Source: Planctomycetales bacterium (GTDB lineage: Bacteria > Planctomycetota > Planctomycetia > Planctomycetales > Planctomycetaceae). From it: a stretch of 64,000 bases of DNA. A program made the position numbers and the translations under genes. The stretch covers positions 124,001 through 188,000 of the forward strand of contig JAPLOA010000079.1 in assembly GCA_026400835.1 (NCBI GenBank), in the 5' to 3' direction. Of this stretch, positions 8,696-53,512 are shown piece by piece (position 1 is the stretch's first letter; every line of letters starts with the position of its first letter). The notes under the pieces were generated by a model. It was not told the origin of the DNA, did no database searches, and saw only the letters and a list, made by a program, of their open reading frames with translations.

Positions 8696-10063
8696 ATGTC
8701 TGTTCGTAAGTCTACGCGTCGTCATTTCCTGCAGTCTGCTGCGGCCGCGGGGGCTGCTGCTGTTCTGATTCCTTCGACAAATCGAGCATTCGGCTATCAG
8801 TCTGCCAATGATCGACCAGTCTTTGCAACGATTGGACTTCGAAACCAGGGCTGGTCTATCACCAGCAAGTCATTCAAGTTTGCTGACTTTGCCGCCCTGG
8901 CCGATGTTGACTCAAAGGTTCTGGGGGTCAACGTAGAGAACGTTGAAAAAGGCCAGGGGAAGAAGCCTGATTCCTACAAGGACTACCGCAAGATCCTTGA
9001 TCGAAAAGATATCGACGCAGTCATGATTGCTACACCGGACCACTGGCACACCAAGATCGCTGTGGAAGCGATGTATGCCGGGAAAGACGTTTACTGCGAG
9101 AAGCCGCTGACGCTCACGATTGCCGAGGGCAAGTTGATTGAGAAAGTGGTGAAGGAAACCGGTCGCGTATTCCAGGTCGGCACTATGCAGCGCACGGAAT
9201 CTGACCAGCGATTCCTGCAGGCCGTGGCACTGGTCAAAGCGGGACGTATCGGCACCGTGAAACGAGTAACCTGCGGGATCAACGGGATGGACGCATCGCC
9301 CGTGATTCCGGTCGCTCCGGTACCGGAAGAACTCGACTGGGAATTCTGGCTCGGCCCTGCTCCGAAAGTCGACTATCGATCACTCCCTGAGATGCGTACG
9401 GGATACGGTGGCGGCGTGCCTCTTCACAGCAATTGCCATTATGCATTTCGAAACTGGCATGAATATTCCGGTGGAAAGCTAACCGACTGGGGTGCTCATC
9501 ATGTGGACATCGCCTGCTGGGCTCTTGGTGCGACAGAAACCGGCCCGAGCAAGGTCACGCCGGTCGAGTTTAAGTTGCCCGTTGAATACAAGGATGGACA
9601 TCCTGTTGTAAATGATCAGTACAACGCGGCGACGAGTTTCAAGATCAAGGTCGACATGCCAAACGACGTTGAAATGATCATCACCAGCGAAGGTGACAAT
9701 GGTATTTTGTTCGAAGGGACCGAAGGCCGCTTCTTCGTGAATCGTGGCAAGATCACCGGCCAGCCTGTTGAAGCCTTGAAAGACAAGCCTCTGCCAGAAG
9801 ATGCTATTGACGCCGTCTACGGTGGTCCTGTCAGCGAGAATCATACGTCCAACTTTACGGACGCGATGAAGTCTCGAAAGCAGCCGATTTCAGACGTCTG
9901 GTCTCACAACCGAATGCTGGAAATCTGTCATCTGAGCAATATCGCGATGCGTTTGAACCGTCCTCTGAACTGGGATGCAGTCAAGCGTGAAATCGTTGGA
10001 GATGATCAGGCCAACTCGTTCCTGTCGCGAGAGAATCGCAAGGGATATGAGATCAACATGTAG
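8696..10063 (+). CDS. Gfo/Idh/MocA family oxidoreductase, exported
   Basis: The ATG at 8696 has GAGGAG seven bases upstream and starts directly at a twin-arginine signal (STRRHFLQSAAAAGAAAVLIP), so it is preferred over the in-frame start 63 bases earlier. The mature protein of about 420 residues has the Rossmann fold of the family (VFATIGLRNQGW where GxGxxG is expected, a relaxed version), then DAVMIATPDHWH and the signature EKPLTLTIAEGKLI, with the catalytic-type Lys of the EKP motif. Such exported NAD(P)-dependent enzymes are numerous in planctomycetes and act on sugars or sugar acids; the substrate cannot be read here. It is followed by a strong hairpin at 10079 and seems to be a single gene. 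Confidence 0.92.
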   Translation: MSVRKSTRRHFLQSAAAAGAAAVLIPSTNRAFGYQSANDRPVFATIGLRNQGWSITSKSFKFADFAALADVDSKVLGVNVENVEKGQGKKPDSYKDYRKILDRKDIDAVMIATPDHWHTKIAVEAMYAGKDVYCEKPLTLTIAEGKLIEKVVKETGRVFQVGTMQRTESDQRFLQAVALVKAGRIGTVKRVTCGINGMDASPVIPVAPVPEELDWEFWLGPAPKVDYRSLPEMRTGYGGGVPLHSNCHYAFRNWHEYSGGKLTDWGAHHVDIACWALGATETGPSKVTPVEFKLPVEYKDGHPVVNDQYNAATSFKIKVDMPNDVEMIITSEGDNGILFEGTEGRFFVNRGKITGQPVEALKDKPLPEDAIDAVYGGPVSENHTSNFTDAMKSRKQPISDVWSHNRMLEICHLSNIAMRLNRPLNWDAVKREIVGDDQANSFLSRENRKGYEINM

Positions 10064-10078
10064 TGTTGGCGTTACTCG

Positions 10079-10112
10079 ATGGTGGCTGGGTTCCGGTGAA
10101 CTCAGCCACCAT
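10079..10112 (+). terminator. Hairpin after the oxidoreductase gene
   Basis: ATGGTGGCTG (10079-10088) pairs perfectly with CAGCCACCAT (10103-10112) around a 14-base loop, 16 bases after the stop codon. A short T run follows eight bases later, so it is a plausible but not classical intrinsic terminator. Confidence 0.55.
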
Positions 10113-10258
10113 TCGGCCGTTTTGAAGCGGCACGGCGGTAGCCGTCCGGTTTTTGCACGGAGCTTAAGTTCAATCAACCGACAGCTTGCGCTGTTCCGCC
10201 AGCAGTGATTGCCATTGGTCGCCAGCCCGTGACCGATGTTGCCTGCAGATGCAGACCA

Positions 10259-12676
10259 CTATGGCTGCTGTGGCGGATTCAGGTGGCGGCGAAGGAATTC
10301 GAAAGTGCCCTTCCCGTGAATTGTGTGTGGGCCGTCGAAGAACTCCAGAACGGCTCGGTCGCTTAATCCCAATTGATCATAATGGCGGCGGACCTTGCCA
10401 AATTCCCCGGCGACCCATTCGCTGGGCTGACCTCCGTCACGATGCCCCTCTTCGACCATGAACGGTCGCGGTGTCATCAGCATGGCGAGTTCTGCATAAC
10501 TGGCCACATGCGCCAGGTTCCATTCAAAGACTTCATACTCCGAGGTAAACAGATAGCTGAACTTCTCACTGTTCGATGCCATCGTGCGTGGCCAATCTGT
10601 GAAATCCCCGGAGCAAATTGACAAGCTGTACTTCTCGACGAGAGGCGGAACACGCATGGCCGTCTTACCACCGTAGGACAGTCCGTAAAATACGATCCGC
10701 GTGGCATCAACTTGAGGTAACGTCGCCAGCCAGTCCAGTGTTTGCTCATGCTGAGCGATGATGTAACTGAACAGGGAACGCTTTAAAGGATTTGACATGC
10801 GCTGCAGTTGTCGAAACTTGTCTCCACCCCGATACGGATTCTGTGGTGCGTAGACGATGTAGCCTTGCTTCACCAGCTCCTCGCTGAAGGATTTGTAGTA
10901 TCGATAGTGTTCGGCTTCACGCGAGATCGTATCCATGGGCGTCCCGTCCAATCCATGCTGGCATACGACGACGGGGCGTTGCTCACCGTCCTTAATGTTG
11001 TTTGGAATCAAAAGAATTCCGCCAGCGATCAAATCTTCAAAAACGTCTAACACGATCTCATATCCGACATAAGCATCGTTAACGAGAATTCGTCGAGAGC
11101 GAGCTTGAGGCGACTGTCGCTGCTGCGGCAACTTGCCTATCAGCTCTGCATGAACCCATTCCCTCAGCCGAGGTTCCTGATTCTTCCACTCATCGATTGC
11201 CGCTGGATCTATAAGCCAACGAGCATCGCGGACCTGGTGACTGCGGAGAAGCAGACTCTGAACATGAGCCTGCAATTCATCAATTTGCCTCTTCTCCCGT
11301 GTCATAGCATCGCGAGTAACGAGTTCCGGCCCACTATCCTGCAGTGTATTGGTGGCCCACGGCGTCGGCTGTTGGGCAAGTTGTTCCAACACATCGAGCC
11401 TTTCGGCAAAGGCTCGTAAAGCATTGTCAGTGCCTGGAGGCCCTGCACCGCTCTTTGCGCTGACGACCGAGATGAGCTCTTCAGGTTTGTTGTGCAACAA
11501 AAAGAATCGATTTGCTCGATCGAGTTCTGCCTGAACCGATTCCAGTGGGCAGCTTCTGATCTGCCCGGGAGCGGCCACGTTCGTACAACCTTTTCGGGGA
11601 TGCGGCGGTCCAGCAATTTCAACAGCCCGACACGACTCGATGATCAGTCTTCGTGGAGCGATCATTCCAGCCAGTTCCGCATCACCGAACTCGGTTAGTA
11701 ACCCCCAGACGTTCCGGTAGATCGGTTCCTGCCAGACAGACTCTCGCTGCTGAAAATAGCCACTCACCCAGCAGGCCTGAAGTCGTGTGTCGATGGCCGC
11801 CGAGTAAAGTGCCAGGAGCCCACCTTCGCCAAAACCAATGACACCAATCTTTGGGTGAACTCCAATTTGATCCGGTGCCAACCGCTTCAACTGCTGCTCA
11901 AGCAAATCCGTTGCCGCGAAAACTTTTTGAACTTCGTAACCGATGATATGTCTTCCGACCTCGAAGGCCTGACGGTAAAGAAACTCTCGATGCGGCTGAT
12001 TTGTGAACACGATCTCCGCGCGTCCTGAGTATTCATCACTTCGGCTAAGCAGCATCGGAACAGCGACAATGCAGCCAGCTTCTGCCAGGCGGGGGACGAT
12101 CTGAGCCGTTTCCGGCAATCCCTGTTGCAACCCGGAAAACATTTCCGGAGTCCAGTCTGCATCCGGCAATGCAACGACGGCTGCCCGAATGATTGGAGGA
12201 ACAAAAAGCAATCCGTCGGCAGAGACACCCTCAATCACCGGCCACCGAACACGATGTACTGTAACACGTGGACTCTTCGCCACGATGGATGACTGAGTTA
12301 GGGTAGTAATCAGTTCAAAGTCCTCGGGTCTCGGTGGATGAGAGGTTACGCGAATATCAACAGCCCCGATCAAGCTTCGGAAACGATTTCGATGATCCGT
12401 CAGGCTCTTCTCCAGGGCGATACCGGTGACCAAGTCGTCTTTCCATCGTTCTGATCGGAGCCGAGGGGATGCGGCTAACTCCCGCAGGCAAAACATATTT
12501 AATCCCTCGACCATCACCTGATCGAGCGGTCGATCCACGGTCAGTGGAGCTGTGCCGGGAAGTATCTCATCGGCCGCCGTTACCCTTGCGAGCAAGAATA
12601 GTCCAAGAACGATTCCTTTCAGGATCATCGCAGGGGAAGAACCGCCTGATTTCTGTTCCTCACCGGGGCTCACCAT
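10259..12676 (-). CDS. Secreted double-domain alpha/beta hydrolase
   Basis: An 805-residue exported protein with two alpha/beta-hydrolase units. The C-terminal unit (about 510-800) resembles acetyl-xylan esterase/dienelactone hydrolase-like enzymes: VVVCQHGLDG forms the oxyanion region, GLSYGG gives nucleophile Ser667, and HTIHGKG near 784-790 supplies the likely catalytic His. The N-terminal unit (about 130-360) has the same layout, including PKIGVIGFGEGG, but Glu284 stands where the nucleophile Ser should be, so it is probably inactive or uses other chemistry. Signal peptide: MILKGIVLGLFLLARVTAA at residues 17-35, so the true start may be the Met at 12628 rather than 12676. It is a lone gene facing the oxidoreductase; a carbohydrate-esterase role is inferred from the family and setting. 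Confidence 0.82.
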   Translation of the reverse strand: MVSPGEEQKSGGSSPAMILKGIVLGLFLLARVTAADEILPGTAPLTVDRPLDQVMVEGLNMFCLRELAASPRLRSERWKDDLVTGIALEKSLTDHRNRFRSLIGAVDIRVTSHPPRPEDFELITTLTQSSIVAKSPRVTVHRVRWPVIEGVSADGLLFVPPIIRAAVVALPDADWTPEMFSGLQQGLPETAQIVPRLAEAGCIVAVPMLLSRSDEYSGRAEIVFTNQPHREFLYRQAFEVGRHIIGYEVQKVFAATDLLEQQLKRLAPDQIGVHPKIGVIGFGEGGLLALYSAAIDTRLQACWVSGYFQQRESVWQEPIYRNVWGLLTEFGDAELAGMIAPRRLIIESCRAVEIAGPPHPRKGCTNVAAPGQIRSCPLESVQAELDRANRFFLLHNKPEELISVVSAKSGAGPPGTDNALRAFAERLDVLEQLAQQPTPWATNTLQDSGPELVTRDAMTREKRQIDELQAHVQSLLLRSHQVRDARWLIDPAAIDEWKNQEPRLREWVHAELIGKLPQQRQSPQARSRRILVNDAYVGYEIVLDVFEDLIAGGILLIPNNIKDGEQRPVVVCQHGLDGTPMDTISREAEHYRYYKSFSEELVKQGYIVYAPQNPYRGGDKFRQLQRMSNPLKRSLFSYIIAQHEQTLDWLATLPQVDATRIVFYGLSYGGKTAMRVPPLVEKYSLSICSGDFTDWPRTMASNSEKFSYLFTSEYEVFEWNLAHVASYAELAMLMTPRPFMVEEGHRDGGQPSEWVAGEFGKVRRHYDQLGLSDRAVLEFFDGPHTIHGKGTFEFLRRHLNPPQQP

Positions 12677-21940: not shown

Positions 21941-22735
21941 GCCGTGTCTTTCCGCCTGTACTCTAGCCTAAAACAATTCCAGCAGGACGCCTGTTCAAAC
22001 CCGGGTGGCTCGATCGAGCGTTACGGGAGCGACTTGACATATGACTGGCAATATCGCCTGAAAGTCTGCGAAGTGACGGATGGTTATTGGGGTTCTGACA
22101 GTCGCTCAGGATGTGCGCGCAGAGTTTCTGCCCAGGCGAATCGCTCGAATCCGCCGGCAGCCGAAGAAATTCGACTCCTCACAAGCGGCTATTGTCTCTT
22201 CATGTCAACCTCAAGAAGGAAAAAACGAGGTTGGACAGAATTCGCAGCCTGAACTTCGACCGACAGGCGACATAGAAGTGATCAGGATGCTCAAATCGTC
22301 GCTGACAGAGGTCTCCGGCGATGGCCCGGGATTACTGTTTTCAGCGAAAATCGCTGAAAAAGGCTTTCTGATTCGGCCTGCAGTGCCTTGGTCCCTGTGA
22401 AATCGGCAGGCAATGCCGAAGTGAAACGCTGTACGAAGGAATCGAAGAAAATGAGTCCAAATTGACGCTGTCGCCGTATTGACCGTTCCGGATCGCAACA
22501 GTTATCACCCCGCGACGATTGTCCGAGTGTTGCGCTGCGAGGCAGTGAACGAGCGGAGAATCAAGACAGCTCAGATCAGATTAAATCACGAGTCCCCGGA
22601 AACGGATTCCGGGCTCGGATCGAGTTACCTAATTTGACTCATGGTCCGCACCAGAATCGACTGGTTCGGAAATCATGGACGATCGCTGCCAGAGCCAGGT
22701 CGCTCTGACGCGCATTCCTGAAGGAGGATCCTACA
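21941..22735. other. Divergent intergenic region before the large secretin gene
   Basis: About 790 bases with no convincing gene; overlapping plus-strand frames of 102 and 106 codons lack ribosome sites and known motifs. A small perfect hairpin lies at 22338-22360 (TTTTCAGCG and CGCTGAAAA around a five-base loop), symmetric enough to act on either strand. The last 15 bases hold an excellent Shine-Dalgarno, AAGGAGG at 22721-22727, eight bases before a TTG start codon. Promoters for both the HDOD-sthA operon and the secretin should be here. Confidence 0.5.
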
Positions 22736-25700
22736 TTGCAAAAGGCCATCGGACTCATCACATGCGCTTCGGTGATGGCCGTGTCGCTGTATTTGTTCAG
22801 CGGCGGCGATCCGTCACGAACGTTGTCAGCTCAGACTGACTCCGGAAAACCTACTGGCAACTACAATGCTGCTGCCAGACGATTTCTTCAGGACGCTCGG
22901 CAGAAGGTGAAGCAAGGCAAGACTGCCGAAGCTCGCCGACTGGCTGAGACAGCGGCATCGCTGTCTGCTGAGTGGAATGAAGGAGAAGAAACTCCTGAGG
23001 AGTTTCTGGATTCACTCGCTGAGCCTGTGGCAAAGCAGGGTGTTGATTTTGATTTCGAGAAACAAGCAGCATCCACTGAAATGGCTGAGACAGATGATTC
23101 TGCCTCAGCCGACTCAGAGGAAGTCAATCCTTTCGAGGAACTGGCAGATGCTGATGTTGAGGCTCCGATGGCCAGTAACGACCTGCTGAAGAAGAAGCAG
23201 GCTCAACGACTGGTTAAGGAAGCTCGGTTTGCCCTGGCCAAGGGTGATCTTGCAACGGCCCGTTCGCGTGCTGTTCAGGCTCGACAGCTACAAGCCTCGT
23301 GGGGACTGTGGGATGATCGGCCGGAACATGTTATTGCCGACCTTGACAAGAAGACAAAGACATCGACTTTTGTTGCGGGTGGCAGCAAGTCATCTGAGAA
23401 GCCGACAGTTCGTTCAAAGAGTGCTGACAACGAGTACGAGCAGGCAACAGGCTTGCTGACTCAGGCACGTGCCGCGATGGATGCAGGCAACCTTGAGGAA
23501 GCCGCAAAACTTGCGGATCAGGCTGCCAAACTGGACGTGGCCTACGGCATGTTTGAGGATAATCCGACCCTCGTTTCCCGGGACATCAAGCGACTGCAGG
23601 GAACCGGTGCGGCTGTCAACTCGACGTTTGCGTCAGCAGACAGTGATACATCTGAAGATGCTGTCATGGCTCGCAAGCTGCTTCACGAAGCACGTGAAGC
23701 CCTGGTCCATGGAAAACTGAGCGTCGCTCGCGAAAAGGCGGCTCAGGCATCCGAGTTGAATGTTGCCTACAACGTTCTGGATGACCGTCCGGAACTTGTT
23801 CTGAATGACATCGAACTGGCACTGCGTGGTCAGGGCAAATCAAAGAAGTCAGCCCGCACCGACAACATTGCAGACGCAGAAACTGCCACGGAATCAGAAG
23901 CCTATCGACTGGTTGCAGAAGCTCGGTCTGCCTTGAATAAAGGCGATCATCAGAAGGCTCAGCATCTTGCAATTCAGGCCCAGCAGCACGACGCTTCGTT
24001 CGGACTTCTGGAAGATCGTCCAGAGACCGTACTGGAAGAAGCCCAGTTGATGGCCCAGAATAGTTCTCAGAAGAATGGCCGAAACGCTTTGGCGTCCGGA
24101 AGCCCTGTGGATGTGACTCCTGAGGGACGTGCATCTGCTTCACTTGCTTCAAACAACGAGGCAGAGTTTGACTTCCCGGTTCTGGCACCAGAAGGTGAGT
24201 CTGCCTCGCAGGCTTATCGCAGAGGCATTGCCGCTCTTCGCAGTGGAAATCGAGTGGCTGCCAAGGCCGCATTCTCTGAAGCCTCGAAGAATGCTGGAGA
24301 TCTGGGCAGCAAAGAGCGTCGACAACTGCAGGACTTTATGCAGAACATTGCTGCTGCTCCGGATGTGCAATTGGCATCTGGCCAGGAGGGTGAATCGATC
24401 TCCATCGATAACGAACTTCCAATGAGCCCAATGAATGAAAAAGATCCGCTGACAACAGCGACTGAAGAGTCTGATGTTCGCTACGAACGTCTTCGCACAG
24501 AAGTCATGAACAGTGTATTCCGAGCAGAGAAGCTGAAGAAGGATAACCCGGAAGAGGCTCTGCAAATCCTGGATAACACACTTGCCACAGTCGAAGCAGC
24601 TCCTCTCAACAAGGAGTCACTGGATACTCTGGGTGGTTATGTTCGTCGCAGTCAGGAAACGATTCGCGAGTACATGGATCAGCAAGGGCCCAACATCGCT
24701 CAGCAGAACAAGAATCGTAACGTGATGGAAGCGATCAAACGCGAGACAGAATCAAAGATTCGGATCGAGCAGGAGTTCGCGGAACTTGTTGATCAGTACA
24801 ACGAACTGATGAAAGAACATCGCTACGCAGAAGCAGAGCTGCTGGCCAAGAAAGCGAAGGATCTGAATCCGGATCTGCCTCAGGCCACAATCATGGTTGA
24901 AAAAGCCAAGATTCAGCGTCAGGTTGCCTTCAACAATGACGTGCGGGAACGCAAGGCCGACAGCTTTACACAGCAGTTGAACGATGTAGAACTGGCTTCG
25001 ATTATGCCTCCGGGAGGAGACTTCTCGATGCCGGATGCAAAGTCGTGGACTGACCTGTCAAAACGTCGCGAAAAGTACGGCCGTGCAGACAGCCGTGAAC
25101 GAACGGAAAGCGAACTGCAGATCGAGAAGAGCCTCGGTGAGAAAGTCTCCCTGCACTTTCATGACGTGGCCTTGACGGAAGTCATTCGACACATTGCAAC
25201 AGTCCATGGCATCAATATTGCCATGCAGACTCGTGCTATCGAAACGGAAGGTCTGACAGCCGATCAACCAGTCAGTATTGATGTGGACGGAATTACTCTG
25301 AGAAGTGCGTTGAATCTCTTGCTGGATCAGGCCGGTGGTCTGGTCTACACGATCGAGAATGAGACGCTGATGATCTCGAATCGACTGGAGCAGGAAACCA
25401 AGCTGGTTACATTGACCTACAATGTAGCAGATCTGGTTGTCCCGGTCGCAAATAAGCTTGGCACCAACTCTCAGGCCAGTAAGGATCAATCGCAAAGCCC
25501 TGGGATGGGCTTGTATCAGGTAAACGATGATCTGTCTGTCAACATCAGTGGAAATGGTCGAACCAACTCCGGTGCGACTGTTGACTACTCTGACAATCAT
25601 GCAGACTTCTCGGGGCTCATCGATCTGCTGACCACCACTATTGAACCTGGCACATGGGACGTCGATGGTGGAAGTGGGACGATCGGGACTGAAGAAAACA

Positions 25701-27073
25701 CATTGAGCCTTGTGATTCGACAGACGGCTGCGACACATGAGCAGGTCGCCGATTTGCTGAAGCAGTTGCGAAAGCTGCAGGACTTGCAAGTAACTGTCGA
25801 AGTGCGATTTATCAGTGTTTCTGACAACTTCTTTGAACGAATTGGCGTCGACTTCGACTTCAACGTGCAGGACAACCTTGGTGATCCTGCCGGTGTACCA
25901 GCCTTTGGATCTCGCCAGCTGACATTCCCAGGCGGGACAACTGGTGGTGGAGGCGGTGGTGGTGGTGGAGGTGGGCAACAGGGACAGGACCTGCGAGGAA
26001 ATACTCAGCAAGGTGGCGGTGGTGGCGGTGGTGGCGGTGGTCAGCAGGGTCAGCAGGGCCAGCAGGGCCAGCAAGGCGGTGGTGGCCGACTGTTTGACCG
26101 TGTAAACCGAGTCAACTCCCCTCGCGACGACTTCAATGGTCAGACGGTAGGCATGTCAGGTCCAAATCAGTTTACTGAGGATTACGACATCCAGTTCCGT
26201 CAGGGATCATTTGAAATTGGTGTGCCAGACTTTGGTGGATTCCAACCAAATGCAGGTATTCAGGTCGGGATGGCCATCCTGAGTGATATCGAAGCCTTCT
26301 TCTTCATTCAGGCCGCACAGGGTGACTCTCGATCGAACATCATGACTGCTCCAAAAGTCACGATGTACAACGGTCAAACCGCGAGCGTCAGCGACAATAT
26401 TATTCGAAACTATGTGGCACAACAGATTCCGGTTGTAGGTCAGGGCGGCATTGGTTTTCAATCAGTGATCGGCCAGGCCCTCGACGGTGTTACCCTAACG
26501 GTAAACGGAGTTGTTTCTGCGGATCGAAGGTATGTTCGATTGTCCATCTTACCAGTCTTCAATCAGATCATTGAAATGCAGACCTTTACCAATGTCGGCG
26601 GCGGACAAGCTGCTGGTGGCTTTGGTGGTGGTGGTGGTGGTGGCGGCTTTGGTGGACAAGGCGGCGGTGGTGGTGGTGGTGGTCAGTTCGGCTTCGGCGG
26701 AATTGGCGGCGGCTTCGGTGGTGGAGGTGGTGGAGGTGGCGGTGGTGGCCAGCAAGGCCAGGGTGGTCAGCAGGGTCAGCAAGGTGGAGGAACTGCCGGA
26801 ACACTGCAGTTGCCTGTTACTTCCAACCTGACCGTATCAACCGTCGTCAGCGTTCCGGACGGTGGTACCGTGCTCCTCGGCGGAATCAAGCGGTTGAGAG
26901 AAGGCCGAAATATGGCTGGAGTACCGATCCTGAACAAGATTCCTTACATCAGCCGATTGTTCAAGAATAGTGGTGTGGGACGCGAGACTGAAAGCGTGAT
27001 GCTGATGGTTACGCCTCGTATCATTATTCAGGAAGAAGAAGAGGAACTCATCATCGGAACTGCTACTGAATGA
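22736..27073 (+). CDS. Giant secretin (GspD-like) with TPR-like repeats and polyglycine inserts
   Basis: The TTG start is fixed by AAGGAGG eight bases upstream and a signal peptide (MQKAIGLITCASVMAVSLYL). The 1445-residue protein has five helical repeats at about 45-92, 154-204, 237-287, 312-362 and 387-437, each with ARxAL..G....A...A..A and most ending in D-R-P-E-x-V or a close variant, separated by acidic linkers. A further degenerate TPR-like part extends to about 790. A secretin N0/STN domain follows (about 800-900, LHFHDVALTEVIRHIA), then N-domain and the secretin beta-barrel (from about 1010; signature VPDGGTVLLGGIKR near 1375 and VMLMVTPRIIIQEEEE at the end). Two Gly/Gln tracts interrupt the barrel region (about 1066-1120 and 1285-1355). 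No other type II secretion genes adjoin. It should form an outer-membrane channel; the repeats may bind partners in the periplasm. Confidence 0.9.
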   Translation: MQKAIGLITCASVMAVSLYLFSGGDPSRTLSAQTDSGKPTGNYNAAARRFLQDARQKVKQGKTAEARRLAETAASLSAEWNEGEETPEEFLDSLAEPVAKQGVDFDFEKQAASTEMAETDDSASADSEEVNPFEELADADVEAPMASNDLLKKKQAQRLVKEARFALAKGDLATARSRAVQARQLQASWGLWDDRPEHVIADLDKKTKTSTFVAGGSKSSEKPTVRSKSADNEYEQATGLLTQARAAMDAGNLEEAAKLADQAAKLDVAYGMFEDNPTLVSRDIKRLQGTGAAVNSTFASADSDTSEDAVMARKLLHEAREALVHGKLSVAREKAAQASELNVAYNVLDDRPELVLNDIELALRGQGKSKKSARTDNIADAETATESEAYRLVAEARSALNKGDHQKAQHLAIQAQQHDASFGLLEDRPETVLEEAQLMAQNSSQKNGRNALASGSPVDVTPEGRASASLASNNEAEFDFPVLAPEGESASQAYRRGIAALRSGNRVAAKAAFSEASKNAGDLGSKERRQLQDFMQNIAAAPDVQLASGQEGESISIDNELPMSPMNEKDPLTTATEESDVRYERLRTEVMNSVFRAEKLKKDNPEEALQILDNTLATVEAAPLNKESLDTLGGYVRRSQETIREYMDQQGPNIAQQNKNRNVMEAIKRETESKIRIEQEFAELVDQYNELMKEHRYAEAELLAKKAKDLNPDLPQATIMVEKAKIQRQVAFNNDVRERKADSFTQQLNDVELASIMPPGGDFSMPDAKSWTDLSKRREKYGRADSRERTESELQIEKSLGEKVSLHFHDVALTEVIRHIATVHGINIAMQTRAIETEGLTADQPVSIDVDGITLRSALNLLLDQAGGLVYTIENETLMISNRLEQETKLVTLTYNVADLVVPVANKLGTNSQASKDQSQSPGMGLYQVNDDLSVNISGNGRTNSGATVDYSDNHADFSGLIDLLTTTIEPGTWDVDGGSGTIGTEENTLSLVIRQTAATHEQVADLLKQLRKLQDLQVTVEVRFISVSDNFFERIGVDFDFNVQDNLGDPAGVPAFGSRQLTFPGGTTGGGGGGGGGGGQQGQDLRGNTQQGGGGGGGGGGQQGQQGQQGQQGGGGRLFDRVNRVNSPRDDFNGQTVGMSGPNQFTEDYDIQFRQGSFEIGVPDFGGFQPNAGIQVGMAILSDIEAFFFIQAAQGDSRSNIMTAPKVTMYNGQTASVSDNIIRNYVAQQIPVVGQGGIGFQSVIGQALDGVTLTVNGVVSADRRYVRLSILPVFNQIIEMQTFTNVGGGQAAGGFGGGGGGGGFGGQGGGGGGGGQFGFGGIGGGFGGGGGGGGGGGQQGQGGQQGQQGGGTAGTLQLPVTSNLTVSTVVSVPDGGTVLLGGIKRLREGRNMAGVPILNKIPYISRLFKNSGVGRETESVMLMVTPRIIIQEEEEELIIGTATE
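25945..26086 (+). repeat. GGT/GGC and CAGGGCCAGCAG codon repeats, first tract
   Basis: Two runs of mostly GGT/GGC/GGA codons (about 25945-25974 and 26011-26043) and a run of CAGCAGGGC-type codons (26042-26075), coding for polyglycine and GQQGQQ. Synonymous codon mixing suggests the tract is kept by selection on the protein or has aged since expansion. The triplet repeats make length variation by slippage likely, in frame. Confidence 0.8.
26598..26794 (+). repeat. GGT/GGC codon repeats, second tract
   Basis: About 65 codons almost wholly for Gly, Phe and Gln (GGFGGGGGGGGFGGQGG pattern), ending in GQQGQ units. It has the same composition as the first tract 600 bases upstream and lies just before the conserved TLQLPVTSNLTVSTVVSVPDG end of the secretin barrel. 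Confidence 0.8.
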
Positions 27074-47857: not shown

Positions 47858-48293
47858 GTTTATCGAGACGTGGCTTTGGAAGCACAAAGCCTGCTCGCCG
47901 ACGTTCACAAAGCCTTACAGAATTCGGAGTGCAAACAAAAAGACTGTGTTTTTTCGGTCTGGTCCAATATCTCCGAGTTTTTGATGGGGCAACACCCTCA
48001 TCCGCACTGGCAAGGCCATGCTTATCGGGGGGGGTTGGATTATTCTACGCAACCGGCTGAACCGTCCCGCTGTTATAGAGACATCAAAATACGTTTATGT
48101 CTCCATTCACCGAGCGTCTGCCTGAGGTCGATACCACAGGTGAATTCTGTACTTTGCCCGTTCAGTGAATGAGGCACCCTTTGCCGATTGCCGCATGGAT
48201 CTGTGGCACCTGTGTTCAGGGCAAACAAGTAACGGAACGCGAGCATCCAGGAACGGTCGTTCGCGGAGTTGCGACACGGAAGGAGCACTTCGA
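47858..48293. other. Leader region of the CpaC-type secretin gene
   Basis: About 440 bases with no convincing gene. An in-frame extension of the secretin begins at 48165 but reads as non-signal sequence; GGAAGGAG at 48278-48285 instead marks the ATG at 48294. No operator or riboswitch-like fold was recognised. Confidence 0.45.
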
Positions 48294-50369
48294 ATGTCAG
48301 CTGATTTTGCGGGTCTGGGTCTTCGACTGAAGACATGGTTCGAATGCCTTCGAACCCGACCATTGCGTCAGGTGCTCGCTGGAGCGGTAAGCAGCGTCTG
48401 CCTGCTTGGTGGCACACTTCAAGCTCAGCAGGGTGACGGCTTTCAGGCAGCACCTCAGCAGGTCATTCGGCCAGCACAGATGCAAACCCTTCAGCTCGAA
48501 GACTCCTCTGTCTCGGGGCGAGTAGACGCCAAGCTGAGCCCAAACGTAGACAAACTTCTCAAGCCACAATATCAACTTGATATTGAACGCAGGCATAGTC
48601 AGTTGGTGATCACAAACAAACGTGTGCGGCGAATTGCGGTCACAGATTCCACGGTGGCCAACTACGTTCAGTACTCAGAAAAAGAGATCAGTGTTGTTGG
48701 TCTTGAGCTGGGTAAGACAGACCTGACACTGTGGTTTGAGGACGAATCTGCACCTTCAATTTATGAAGTTTCAGTCGTTCGTGATGCAAGTCTTGAAGAG
48801 CAAAGAACCATAGACTTCGGAAAGCTGGAGCGTCGTATAAGACAGTTGTTTCCGAATTCTACCGTGGCCTTAATTCCGGTCGGCGCTCAGGTGCTGGTTC
48901 GAGGTCAGGCCTACGATGGAGAAGAAGCGCAGAATATTCTCCAGATTGTTCGATCTGAAGTAATGCGGTCACTGGGACGGTTTAATGATCTGGACAACGG
49001 AGCTGCTCTGAATGTGTTTTCCGCATCCGGCGGCATCAACGGGAACAATGGTGGGGGTGGCGGGGGAAACAACGGCGTTAACGATGGTTTCAGAGACATT
49101 GTTATCAACGAACTCTCGATCCCCGGTGAATTCAATGTGAAGATGCGCGTAATGGTCGCCGAGCTCAATCGTTCGGAAATGCGAAATGCTGGTTTTGACT
49201 GGCGAGTGATCTTCGGGGACGGACGCCATGCCGTTGGATCTTCCATGGGAGGTGCAACTGGCACAACATTGAGCGGCATCTTCGAGAACAGCGAGATTCA
49301 GGTTCTGATTCGCTGGTTACAATCGAATGGCACGATCAAGCTGCTGGCGGAGCCCCAGATCGTCTGCATCAGTGGCACTGGTGCCAGTATTCTGGCCGGT
49401 GGTGAGTTTGCCGTTCCAACAATTATTGGTCTGGGTGGCGGCCAGGCCACTTCATTCCGCGGTTTTGGCACGAGCCTCGTCGTAACACCGACCGTGATGG
49501 ATCGAGATCTGATTCGATTGCAGGTTGTTCCGGAGTTCAGTGAACTGAACGCAGCGAACTCAGTGAACGGTATCCCCGGGGTCAACGTTAAACGCGTACA
49601 GACGACTGTGGAACTTCGTGAAGGCCAAACGTTCGCCATCGGTGGTCTGATTTCGCGGCAGACAATCGGACAGACAAGTCGAGTGCCACTGTTCGGAGAC
49701 ATTCCATATATTGGCCCTCGAGTTTTCCAGTCGAAGAATGCTTCCGAAGTGGAGACCGAACTTTTGGTTTTGGTCTCTCCTGAGATCGTTCGACCAATGG
49801 AGCCGGATGAAGTCCCCCCTGTTCCCGGGCACAACGCGACTCATCCAAGTGATGATGAGTTCTGGCATCGTGGTCAGACAGAAGGTACACCGGATAATCA
49901 GGTATACCAGATCTCGCCATATGGCAGTGGATCGATGCACGGTGTGCCTCAGGGCTACAGTCTCTATAATCCTGCCGTTAATCACGGTGGCTATACACCC
50001 GGACCAGGTCCTGGCGGTGGAGCCGCGATGTCTGGACAGGGTTATATGTCCGGACCTCAGGGCATGGTTGAAGGGCTGCAGCCGCAGCCTGAGTATGCAA
50101 TGCCGCAGGGTGGAGCTTATCAGACGGCTCCGATGCAGAGCTATCCGCAGATGCAACCGATGGGGGCTCCACCATCTCAGTACATACCTCAACAGGGACC
50201 TTCAACTCCACTGCCTCCAGCTCCACCTCAGGCATTTCCTTCACAGGGAAATGCAGGCCAGATTAAGCCATCCATGCTGACTAGAATGAAATCCACATTC
50301 CGTAAGGATGGTCAGCCACAAAACAATGCTGTGAAACCTGTTGGGTGGAACAGACCTGTGCAGAGGTAG
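48294..50369 (+). CDS. CpaC/RcpA-type secretin
   Basis: A 691-residue outer-membrane channel protein of the type found with Flp/Tad pili. The ATG is fixed by GGAAGGAG. The signal peptide is long (hydrophobic core at about 31-46, VLAGAVSSVCLLGG). The pilus-assembly N-domain follows (about 75-165: IVITNKRVRRIAVTDSTV-like, then VVGLELGKTDLTLWFED), then a BON-like part (about 175-230, FPNSTVALIPVGAQVLVRGQA). The secretin barrel is about 275-500, with VNVKRVQTTVELREGQTFAI and LVSPEIVRPMEPDE. A Gly/Asn linker sits near 247. The last 150 residues are Pro/Gly/Gln/Tyr/Met-rich and probably disordered. It is followed by a Cys-rich lipoprotein and a TPR lipoprotein; ATPase, platform and prepilin genes are not in the window. 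Confidence 0.88.
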   Translation: MSADFAGLGLRLKTWFECLRTRPLRQVLAGAVSSVCLLGGTLQAQQGDGFQAAPQQVIRPAQMQTLQLEDSSVSGRVDAKLSPNVDKLLKPQYQLDIERRHSQLVITNKRVRRIAVTDSTVANYVQYSEKEISVVGLELGKTDLTLWFEDESAPSIYEVSVVRDASLEEQRTIDFGKLERRIRQLFPNSTVALIPVGAQVLVRGQAYDGEEAQNILQIVRSEVMRSLGRFNDLDNGAALNVFSASGGINGNNGGGGGGNNGVNDGFRDIVINELSIPGEFNVKMRVMVAELNRSEMRNAGFDWRVIFGDGRHAVGSSMGGATGTTLSGIFENSEIQVLIRWLQSNGTIKLLAEPQIVCISGTGASILAGGEFAVPTIIGLGGGQATSFRGFGTSLVVTPTVMDRDLIRLQVVPEFSELNAANSVNGIPGVNVKRVQTTVELREGQTFAIGGLISRQTIGQTSRVPLFGDIPYIGPRVFQSKNASEVETELLVLVSPEIVRPMEPDEVPPVPGHNATHPSDDEFWHRGQTEGTPDNQVYQISPYGSGSMHGVPQGYSLYNPAVNHGGYTPGPGPGGGAAMSGQGYMSGPQGMVEGLQPQPEYAMPQGGAYQTAPMQSYPQMQPMGAPPSQYIPQQGPSTPLPPAPPQAFPSQGNAGQIKPSMLTRMKSTFRKDGQPQNNAVKPVGWNRPVQR

Positions 50370-50493
50370 GATCAGGGACTCGGCAATTTGTTTGTCCAGT
50401 ATGGAACTGGAAACTTTTTCTCGATCTCAGATTACACCCATCCCTCGTTACTGATACCGTTCCTCACGACGTGCAGACAGGAAGAGCACTGAC

Positions 50494-51141
50494 ATGAATC
50501 TTACGCATACTCTTCGGGCGAGATTCGCCGCAGCAGCATTAACGAGCCTGATGGCCTCGGGTTGCTGCTCTACAAATGACTGCTGCACAACCTCGGAATG
50601 CGACAACTGCTCTGACCAGTGCGGTTCGTCATGTGACAACTCCGGCTGTTCGAGCAGTTGGTACTCGAAATGCTTTCCGTGGTGTGGAAAAAGCTACCCT
50701 CGGGGACGATATGCGATTCCCGACGTCATTCCATTGGGGGCGGTGAACAGGGCTCATTGGCACATGATGGAGACCAACGGAGAAGCTGCCGATTTCGTGA
50801 TCTACCGAAACGAGTTCGTGGACAATTCATCTGAGCTGACGCCCTACGGTCGTGACCACATCATGGAGATCGCAGCGAGGATGCCATCTGCTCCGTTTCC
50901 TGTTCTGGTGCAGAGAAGCTTGAATAATGCCGACCCAGAACTCGACCATATTCGACGAGATATCGTGGTGCGAGTGTTGACAGATCTGGGCAATCAGGAT
51001 GCTGACCAGCGTACTGTGGTTTCGCAGCCTTACAGTAACGGCATCAACTCGATGGAGGGTGAGCAGGACTACGGTCGATTCCGACAGATTCGCGGCCGAA
51101 ATAACTTTGGCGGTGGTGGTGGCGGGATTGGCGGATTCTGA
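50494..51141 (+). CDS. Cys-rich lipoprotein
   Basis: A 215-residue protein. A lipobox, LMASGC (Cys24), follows a signal sequence, so lipidation is likely. Residues 24-70 contain more than a dozen cysteines (CCSTNDCCTTSEC, then DNCSDQCGSSCDNSGC, then KCFPWC), an extreme density suggesting a disulfide-locked or metal-binding head. The rest (about 75-200) is a soluble domain with PYGRDHIMEIAARMP and HIRRDIVVRVLTDLG, somewhat like the OmpA-like/peptidoglycan-associated fold but too diverged to call. It ends in a Gly tract. It lies between the CpaC-type secretin and the TPR lipoprotein and is followed by a strong terminator. Confidence 0.75.
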   Translation: MNLTHTLRARFAAAALTSLMASGCCSTNDCCTTSECDNCSDQCGSSCDNSGCSSSWYSKCFPWCGKSYPRGRYAIPDVIPLGAVNRAHWHMMETNGEAADFVIYRNEFVDNSSELTPYGRDHIMEIAARMPSAPFPVLVQRSLNNADPELDHIRRDIVVRVLTDLGNQDADQRTVVSQPYSNGINSMEGEQDYGRFRQIRGRNNFGGGGGGIGGF

Positions 51142-51181
51142 TTCCCTGAGCCAACCTCCGGAATCAGCAGAGCATGTATGA

Positions 51182-51216
51182 GGGACAGCAGCCTGAAGAG
51201 GCTGCTGTCCCTTTTT
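51182..51216 (+). terminator. Strong intrinsic terminator after the Cys-rich lipoprotein
   Basis: GGGACAGCAGCC (51182-51193) pairs perfectly over 12 bp with GGCTGCTGTCCC (51200-51211), loop TGAAGA, followed by TTTTT (51212-51216). The TPR gene downstream therefore needs its own promoter in the 238 bases that remain (51217-51454), where no other feature is seen. Confidence 0.93.
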
Positions 51217-51454
51217 CGTTGCACTCACGATATCCAGAAGATGGCTTACTATTTGACGTAAGTTCATACTTAGCAGAGCGTTAAGTGCTTGACCAAGGTT
51301 CATCTCGACAGGAACGCCCGGATTCCGCTACAACCCCAGTCTCCTCTCATTCTTGCTGTGTGTTTCTGCTCCTCTCTCCGCATGTTTTTGCTGACGCTGT
51401 CCGCGAAATCTGCAATCCTCCTTTCTCACCGTGCATTCGCCTGGAGACCTGACC

Positions 51455-53512
51455 ATGTCAGGATATCGCTGGTCTTCGTTGCTGCCATTTTCGCTAATCG
51501 TTCTGCTTACCGGTTGTCAGTCCAGTGAGTCCAGCCGTTTTGCGTGGAATCCATTTCAGAAATCAGCAGATAAAGCGTCTGCAGAGAAAAGCGGTTCTGC
51601 CCTGGAGTTGCCGAAGTTTGCAAGTCGGAAATCTGAGTCTCAGGAAGAGTCTGCGAGGCAGGCTCCCATGGCCGAGGAGCAGGTCGACCGCTTGCTTGCA
51701 GATGGTCAATTGGCTTTGCAGGAAGAGCGACTTGAGGAAGCGTGTATCGCGTACAATGAAGTTCTCCGTTCGTCTCCTGATAATGCCACTGCTCATCATG
51801 GACTGGCGATGGCAGCTGATCTTTCCGAACAGTGGGCCGATGCAGAATATCATTACCGTCAGGCGCTCAGAATTCGACCGCGGGATGCGAATCTGCTTTG
51901 TGATATCGGATATTCATACCTGTTGCAGAATCGTTATGCTGAAGCAGCTCGTTATCTGAATCATGCGATCGAGGTGAATCCGCAGCATGAGAGTGCTCAG
52001 ATGAATCTGGCATTGTTGGATTTACGACAGGGAAATTGTCAGTCTGCTGAGAGTCGCGTGATTTCAAAGTTCGGTTCCGGTGCGCAGGCCAAGCAGATTA
52101 TGGCCCAACTTGAAGGCCAGACGACGGCCGTGACGGCAGCGTTCAAGACTGATACTGCAACATCCATCCCATCCAACGCCACGTTCGAGCAAGTGCAGGA
52201 GCTTGCTCGGCAAGAGCGATTAGAAGCAGAACGCCGCAGAGCCGGCCAGGGAATGTCTCAGGAGCCGGCCGGTCAGCCCGCAAGTCAAATGCATCAGCAG
52301 CCGATGATGCCGCAGGTTCAGCACCAGCCAATGAGAGGGGTCGATCTTCAGATTGTCTCAAACCGCAATGGCTTGCCGAACGGATCCGCTTACAATGCTA
52401 AAACGGGGCTCCCAACATCAATCCCAGGAGACCGACACGCGGAATCAGTTGCCAGATCGGGGGCACAGTTTCAGAACGGTCAGACTTTGAGTAATGACAA
52501 TGGTCCGATGTTGGATGCCAGGCAGTCAGGAGGAGGTTTTCCTCCGACTGGCACAAGTGCATATGGGGGAGAGTTGCCTGCTCACGGCAATTCTCAAGGC
52601 GTTCGACATCCCGGAAGCTACGCTCCAGGCAACGATGGGATTATGTCAACGTCCGGCGTCAGTATGTCAAATGAGATTCTGAATACTGGCGCGGCGAACG
52701 GAAACGTTCCTGTGATGAATACAACGTCACCAAATCCACTTGTCAATGGAATGCCCATTCTCAATAACATCCATGGAAACGCGGCATCGTCAGTAACAAT
52801 GAATTCGACTCCAGTCGCTGCGCCACAACCACTTGGCGTCAATCCTCTCCCAGCCAAAGTTGTGCCGATTCATTCATCCGGCACATTTCAGGTACCTCAA
52901 AACGGCAGTGTAAGTTACGGCCAGCCCATGGGATTCAACGCACCCACGGCAGCGGCGGCTTTTCAGGCTCCTGCCGCTGCAACTAACGGGGCTTCGGCAC
53001 CAGTGAATTCAAATGGCTCCCCAGCAGTCTATTTGGAGGGACTAAATGCAGGTCCGGGAGCAATTTTTCCAGTGAGTGCTCCAGGTCCAGCGAGCGGAGC
53101 ATTTGCTAATCCCGCAGGACGAACCGCAAACATTAACATGAGCAACGTTAGCTCTCCTGGCACCAACTCCCTGGTCAATGGTGCCATGTATCAGCAACCA
53201 GAATCTGCCCTGCCCTCTCAGGATTGGGCCAACCAGCAGCAGCAGCAATTGCGATCGCAACAACTTCAGTCTCAGCGATGGCAGGAACAACAGTCAATGG
53301 GTCGCCAGCCAGTAACAATGCCCCCGCAGAACTCGCCTTCATGGGGAACCGGAAGTTCTGGTGCTCCCACCGGCTCCAGGCCCGGAACGAGTCCAACCTC
53401 GGTGAATCCGCTTGAAGCCTACGAGAAACAGCGGCAGCAACTGGACTCCGAGTACAATCGAACATTACAGCAATTAGATCGACAGAGTCCATCCGCGATG
53501 CCTCAGTTTTGA
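51455..53512 (+). CDS. TPR lipoprotein (TadD-like) with long Asn/Gln-rich tail
   Basis: A 685-residue lipoprotein; ATG at 51455 has GGAG nine bases upstream. The lipobox is LLTGC (Cys near residue 20). TPR repeats cover about 75-195: LALQEERLEEACIAYNEVLR, ADAEYHYRQALRIRPRDANL and YAEAARYLNHAIEVNPQHES are classical. The remainder, about 215-685, is low-complexity, rich in Gln, Asn, Pro, Gly and Ser, with a Q-rich helix at about 590-610 (QQQQLRSQQLQSQRW) and a final coiled coil (YEKQRQQLDSEYNRTLQQ). In Tad systems a TPR lipoprotein (TadD) helps assemble the secretin, so pairing with the upstream CpaC-type gene fits. The tail is far longer than in TadD. Confidence 0.82.
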   Translation: MSGYRWSSLLPFSLIVLLTGCQSSESSRFAWNPFQKSADKASAEKSGSALELPKFASRKSESQEESARQAPMAEEQVDRLLADGQLALQEERLEEACIAYNEVLRSSPDNATAHHGLAMAADLSEQWADAEYHYRQALRIRPRDANLLCDIGYSYLLQNRYAEAARYLNHAIEVNPQHESAQMNLALLDLRQGNCQSAESRVISKFGSGAQAKQIMAQLEGQTTAVTAAFKTDTATSIPSNATFEQVQELARQERLEAERRRAGQGMSQEPAGQPASQMHQQPMMPQVQHQPMRGVDLQIVSNRNGLPNGSAYNAKTGLPTSIPGDRHAESVARSGAQFQNGQTLSNDNGPMLDARQSGGGFPPTGTSAYGGELPAHGNSQGVRHPGSYAPGNDGIMSTSGVSMSNEILNTGAANGNVPVMNTTSPNPLVNGMPILNNIHGNAASSVTMNSTPVAAPQPLGVNPLPAKVVPIHSSGTFQVPQNGSVSYGQPMGFNAPTAAAAFQAPAAATNGASAPVNSNGSPAVYLEGLNAGPGAIFPVSAPGPASGAFANPAGRTANINMSNVSSPGTNSLVNGAMYQQPESALPSQDWANQQQQQLRSQQLQSQRWQEQQSMGRQPVTMPPQNSPSWGTGSSGAPTGSRPGTSPTSVNPLEAYEKQRQQLDSEYNRTLQQLDRQSPSAMPQF

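Follow-up and report, generated by a model that had tools for sequence, protein, structure and literature searches.

A planctomycete PilQ-type secretin with long Gly/Gln-rich tracts at its predicted lip and gate loops

Background

A 64,000-nucleotide stretch of planctomycete DNA (hereafter the window: positions 124001-188000 of contig C34 in a 7.58-Mb genome of 112 contigs that is 99.99% complete) encodes a large secretin containing two long Gly/Gln-rich tracts, and so raises two questions: which secretion or pilus system does this protein serve, and what would such tracts do in an outer-membrane pore? A first-pass annotation had described a secretin of 1445 residues, with five helical repeats at its N-terminus and two Gly/Gln tracts within the channel-forming part; it had suggested that the tracts could form loops lining or capping the pore, and it had seen no GspE/F/G neighbours. 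A literature search on Gly-rich secretin gates found no report of them in the collection searched.

By bringing together profile searches, a structural model and the gene order in related genomes, we arrive at a reading that rests mainly on the identity of the protein and the location of the tracts, and to which we give a probability of roughly 60%: the protein is a PilQ-type secretin of a type IV pilus (T4P), with a lineage-specific, disordered plug or gasket at its gate.

Results

Domain layout and identity of the secretin

The open reading frame and a Pfam Secretin match (PF00263, aa 1353-1430, E = 9.6e-20, 71.3 bits against a gathering score of 27.5) bear out the 1445-residue secretin of the first-pass annotation, and a weak Pfam match to Secretin_N covers aa 954-1012. 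In an AlphaFold monomer model of aa 640-1445 (mean pLDDT 67.6, with low-confidence parts), N-domains are followed by a four-strand wall, two gate hairpins and an amphipathic loop, which is the layout of a secretin; the wall-strand names used here were assigned from the strand order of solved secretins. All 40 PDB matches returned by Foldseek at E <= 0.001 are, by entry title, secretins or secretin-containing complexes. The features of the gene outside the two tracts are as follows, all on the forward strand.

22736..27073 (+), PilQ-type secretin gene, 1445 aa, TTG start
22736..22834 (+), putative signal peptide, aa 1-33, read from the sequence alone
22865..23020 (+), helical repeat R1, aa 44-95 (AlphaFold model, repeat comparison)
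23189..23353 (+), helical repeat R2, aa 152-206 (AlphaFold model, repeat comparison)
23435..23599 (+), helical repeat R3, aa 234-288 (AlphaFold model, repeat comparison)
23660..23824 (+), helical repeat R4, aa 309-363 (AlphaFold model, repeat comparison)
23891..24055 (+), helical repeat R5, aa 386-440 (AlphaFold model, repeat comparison)
24197..25075 (+), divergent helical region, aa 488-780, different from the R1-R5 repeat (AlphaFold model, repeat comparison)
25142..25423 (+), N0-like domain, aa 803-896 (alpha/beta element order in AlphaFold model; PilQ profile match)
25610..25780 (+), N3/Secretin_N-like domain, aa 959-1015 (Pfam; AlphaFold model)
25784..25864 (+), outer-wall strand 1, aa 1017-1043 (AlphaFold model; PilQ alignments)
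26258..26368 (+), outer-wall strand 2 region, aa 1175-1211 (AlphaFold model)
26378..26515 (+), gate hairpin 1, aa 1215-1260 (profile alignment, AlphaFold model, PMC8563730)
26531..26596 (+), gate hairpin 2, first strand, aa 1266-1287 (profile alignment, AlphaFold model)
26795..26833 (+), gate hairpin 2, second strand, aa 1354-1366 (profile alignment, AlphaFold model)
26870..26917 (+), outer-wall strand 3, aa 1379-1394 (AlphaFold model)
26918..26962 (+), amphipathic helical loop GVPILNKIPYISRLF, aa 1395-1409 (profile alignment, AlphaFold model)
26966..27028 (+), outer-wall strand 4, aa 1411-1431, with a conserved acidic tail after it (AlphaFold model)

The acidic run QEEEEE near the C-terminus (window 27029-27046) is kept in nearly all orthologues. 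Directly 5' of the secretin gene, a 106-aa open reading frame (window 22080-22400) is conserved in the two closest relatives.

The best NCBIfam match is PilQ (TIGR02515), and because its score of 84.7 bits lies far under the curated cut-off of 284.35 we call the protein PilQ-type and not a member of TIGR02515. The best PDB matches are also PilQ, both by profile (1.4e-18) and by fold (6w6m, 8.5e-22), and the NCBIfam GspD model (TIGR02517) scores 74.4 bits, under its cut-off of 351.35. A plasmid search with the secretin protein gave no match.

The five N-terminal repeats, each of ~55 aa, are mutually related (z = 5 to 14 against shuffles for all ten pairs) and form helical hairpins in the AlphaFold model. 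Their spacings are 108, 82, 75 and 77, so the spacing of 75-83 given for them earlier holds for three of the four gaps and fails for R1-R2; with the tract cores also confirmed (below), the earlier description was right apart from this one spacing. The best Foldseek matches of the array are TPR proteins, all weak, and Pfam TPR models match nowhere in the protein. AMIN domains are common, though not universal, at the N-terminus of proteobacterial PilQ; Pfam finds none in this secretin, which has the helical array instead.

Placement of the Gly/Gln tracts

25931..26086 (+), tract 1, Gly/Gln-rich, aa 1066-1117, within the lip/cap loop that joins outer strands 1 and 2
26600..26791 (+), tract 2, Gly/Gln/Phe-rich, aa 1289-1352, at the gate hairpin 2 tip

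These cores of ~52 and ~64 residues, their exact boundaries drawn by eye, confirm the two tracts first described within the channel-forming part. A frame slip or assembly artefact was rejected as their origin, because the codons are mixed (GGT, GGC and GGA with CAG and CAA) and the tracts of near-identical relatives differ in length by whole codons. Runs of seven Gly give 45 overlapping pattern matches in the whole genome, 18 of them inside the secretin gene; another of these few runs is MSGGGGGGGGGNPQ, with which the PilT of the T4P gene cluster described below (L181:8550-9707, on C71) begins. Neither tract contains a Pfam domain match, and both have a pLDDT under 50 in the monomer model, tract 1 lying within a long low-confidence stretch between strands 1 and 2; composition and low model confidence together suggest that the tracts are disordered.

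Solved secretins provide landmarks for placing tract 2. In Vibrio cholerae PilQ, L445 and T493 are paired as upper and lower gate hairpins (PMC7545093), and in phage pIV the hinge of Gate 1 is at G267/G297, with D321/N335 as the point around which Gate 2 twists (PMC8563730). In our profile alignment PilQ T493 falls at the C-terminal edge of tract 2, and the stretch after tract 2 matches pIV from residue 347 onward; tract 2 thus corresponds to the Gate 2 loop. Its lumen-facing position at the gate hairpin 2 tip, as seen for this loop in solved secretins (PMC8563730; PMC7545093; PMC6532946), is well supported by the profile alignment and the AlphaFold model. A location of tract 2 in the amphipathic (membrane) loop was rejected, that loop being the later GVPILNKIPYISRLF motif. 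Tract 1 is assigned, again with good support, to a lip/cap loop that links wall strands 1 and 2. The stretch just after it shows a weak alignment to the rim of Vibrio GspD, in which the cap shuts the top of the pore (PMC6532946). The suggestion that the tracts line or cap the pore hence agrees with both mapped positions, while its functional half is an interpretation, to which we return in the Discussion.

Distribution and evolution of the tracts

The orthologue set comprises about 80 sequences (78 rows), mostly from metagenome-assembled genomes (MAGs) with sometimes mislabelled titles; the relatives with names were Fuerstiella and Planctomycetaceae MAGs. Genomes of the Fuerstiella/Schlesneria/Planctomicrobium type mostly have 80-110 residues at the tract 1 site and 70-120 at the tract 2 site, whereas Pirellulales and others have about 35-75 residues per site, ordinary or charged and Ser/Thr-rich. 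In a quick maximum-likelihood tree, built with the tract columns left out, every Gly-rich gate loop falls within one 34-row clade (99% SH-aLRT; 4 parsimony changes of state), some members of which have GTT-, QTT- or GA-rich loops (QTTT in one relative). Charged residues, acidic plus basic, make up 0.3% of the long loops and 22% of the loops of other orthologues. FG dipeptides number 152 in 38 tract 2 sequences, against 104 +/- 5.8 after shuffling (0 of 1000 shuffles), a statistic that overstates independence because the 38 tracts are related; an FGGIGG core is present in 19 of the 38 (0.8 expected).

Within the genome there are eight Pfam Secretin matches, seven of them over the cut-off. The notion that all its secretins are Gly-rich was rejected: five others (a comparison that left out the one at window 48165) have no such tract and Gly runs of at most 4. 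A phylum-wide profile search found secretin homologues in 146 of 149 genomes, a count that cannot separate orthologues from paralogues outside the class.

Could the tracts be neutral low-complexity expansions in two insertion-tolerant loops, disordered and serving no particular role? We take this main rival seriously without favouring it. It sits well with the variable tract length among near-identical relatives, with the drift in composition within the clade towards GTT, QTTT and GA repeats, with the existence of tract-less orthologues and with the short Gly runs in other proteins of the genome, but it does less to explain why only two fixed sites are affected, why a single clade retains long uncharged loops, why five paralogous secretins have none, and why FG and FGGIGG are enriched beyond composition. 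The first-pass annotation had named orthologues lacking both tracts with no loss of function as what would refute its proposal: orthologues with neither tract do exist in Pirellulales, with barrel and pil synteny kept, which bears on the first half of that condition. Their shorter loops indicate that a secretin as such can do without the tracts.

We think it unlikely that the tracts are surface-exposed chains for adhesion or matrix binding and not elements of the pore. Tract 1 does lie in an outer-rim loop of homologous structures, and planctomycetes attach via fibres and a holdfast (PMC5394234), yet tract 2 corresponds to the gate-2 loop, which faces the lumen, and both tracts are nearly charge-free and have no domain match within them.

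Genomic context and the probable partner system

No match to GspE/GspF, PilB or PilC was found anywhere on the secretin's contig, and the earlier remark on missing GspE/F neighbours thus holds for the contig as a whole. Genes were clustered around 120 related loci and the window, the gene calls in relatives' loci being picks of open reading frames. Eight relatives, for the most part Pirellulales and with Adhaeretor mobilis among them, have pilM upstream of the secretin orthologue and on its strand; the gene order in other Planctomycetia is pilM-[pilN/O-like]-[membrane protein]-secretin, with the secretin last. The genes between pilM and the secretin usually encode a pilN/O-like membrane protein, recognised in five of the eight, and a second, larger protein of ~650-830 aa. 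In several genomes from two families (f2 and f5) no more than about 10 kb separates pilM and the secretin. The gap is 12 kb in G021, and in the remaining finished genomes of the family to which the window belongs the two genes are far apart.

In the window genome, too, the secretin is unlinked to pilM, the only strong PilM being encoded on another contig (C71:32801-35107) and followed there by the same two gene types as in relatives. About 10 kb downstream of this pilM come genes for a PilB-like protein, PilT, a second PilB-like protein, PilC and four pilin-like proteins; a T4P machine (PilM, PilB, PilT, PilC, pilins) is present in the genome. The two PilB-like ATPases that flank PilT lie at L181:6799-8490 and 9811-11517. 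The C71 PilM is 44-51% identical to the secretin-linked PilMs. The C71 pil region contains no secretin signature motif, and Pfam Secretin has no match on C71. Among 59 relatives, PilM is found in 57 and the secretin in all 59 (E <= 0.001; in a few same-genus MAGs the match is weak and paralogue-like). The simplest reading is that of a PilQ whose operon was split, and most likely the protein is a PilQ-type T4P secretin separated from its pilM-B-T-C cluster, a system that the first-pass annotation had not named; the absence of GspE/F/G neighbours is explained by the location of the pilM set on another contig. Partnership with this T4P in the window strain itself is probable on the strength of gene content and of synteny in relatives.

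The genome holds further secretin-related genes. A second secretin (734 aa; Secretin and T2SS-T3SS_pil_N), in the region at window 48165-53512, is Tad/CpaC-like; 3' of it come the genes of a small lipoprotein-like protein that ends Gly-rich (50494-51141) and of a TPR protein (51431-53512). Two other proteins, of 1813 aa with seven Secretin_N domains (L184:6565-12006, on C44) and of 1212 aa with three (L182:11321-14959, on C68), have no Pfam secretin barrel and adjoin GspE/GspF/pseudopilin genes; possibly these are separate periplasmic ring proteins of a planctomycete type II secretion system (T2SS). That our secretin functions as GspD for a T2SS-like pseudopilus system without an adjacent complete secretin gene is improbable: although Pfam Secretin matches nothing next to the GspE/GspF/pseudopilin clusters on C68 and C95, and the NCBIfam GspD score comes close behind that of PilQ, the T2SS reading is set aside because of the pilM synteny in relatives and the GspD-like secretin, bearing seven Secretin_N domains, already present in the C44 cluster, with co-occurrence with PilM and the PilQ fold and profile matches also against it.

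Discussion

In the reading that we prefer, the secretin would be the outer-membrane pore of a PilM-associated T4P machine whose other parts are encoded on C71, and it would carry an N-terminal TPR-like array in the place where proteobacterial PilQ has AMIN domains. Two of its segments, the lip loop (tract 1) and the gate hairpin 2 tip (tract 2), would have turned into long, uncharged, disordered chains rich in Gly, Gln and Phe. By analogy with known secretins the protein presumably forms a ring, and with ~14 subunits, a count borrowed from Vibrio PilQ, some 900 disordered gate-2 residues would gather inside the lumen or at its mouth. There, these chains might act as a soft plug or gasket that limits leakage in the absence of a pilus and yields around a passing fibre. 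This function around a moving pilus is the one that we favour, tentatively and with less than even confidence. The Gate 2 loop does matter in a relative, since removing 10 residues of Gate 2 from phage f1 pIV leaves the multimers leaky and non-functional (PMC8563730).

A more specific version, in which the gate-2 chains would form a cohesive, FG-rich mesh in the lumen as a convergent analogue of the nuclear-pore FG barrier, strikes us as a long shot. The FG nucleoporins of the nuclear pore carry FG dipeptides in disordered chains inside a ring-shaped pore. The likeness is one of analogy only, with no homology; tract 2 has about four FGs per chain, and we know of no transport receptor for the planctomycete secretin. 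If such a mesh were real, a very wide pore could be sealed while a pilus, and perhaps a bound polymer, passes, and it might belong to the large crateriform structures.

Large crateriform structures of planctomycetes give rise to fibres 12 nm wide (PMC5394234), and this observation, together with the T4P assignment, makes the link to pore-like surface structures testable; the secretin may be regarded as a concrete candidate for the pore beneath pilus-bearing crateriform structures. Deletions of pilQ-like genes appear feasible in the phylum, as Planctopirus limnophila with three such genes deleted is reported to be viable (PMC11958385). The gate-2 loop is short in the solved secretins of our alignments; a clade that retains about 50-100 uncharged, presumably disordered residues at this tip is a natural setting in which to test how a wide pore in the outer membrane seals around a moving pilus.

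Comparison with known systems

V. cholerae PilQ (6w6m; PMC7545093), the best Foldseek match with 13% identity over the structural match, shares with the planctomycete secretin the N0 and N3 domains, a four-strand wall per subunit, two gate hairpins and the amphipathic helical loop. Unlike it, the planctomycete protein has a helical array where no AMIN domain was found, and its gate-2 tip and lip loops are Gly/Gln tracts of 50-65 residues. Within the PVC superphylum, the Amuc_1098/Amuc_1101-type T4P has counterparts of both proteins, each scoring far under the curated cut-off: the putative partner PilM matches the Amuc_1101 family (NF045709) at 3e-62, with 211 bits against 650, and the secretin matches the Amuc_1098 family (NF042912) at 7.7e-13, with 47.4 bits against 750. 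Like the capped Vibrio-type GspD (5wq8, 6i1y; PMC6532946), the planctomycete secretin has a rim-loop element that may be able to close the top of the pore, but the GspD cap is an ordered hairpin and its counterpart here, in a region where the alignment is weak, a long Gly/Gln tract. Phage f1 pIV (7ofh; PMC8563730) has the same order of Gate 1 and Gate 2 and a variable, pore-facing Gate 2 loop, which measures ~15 residues between its conserved ends in pIV and has ~64 added in the planctomycete secretin.
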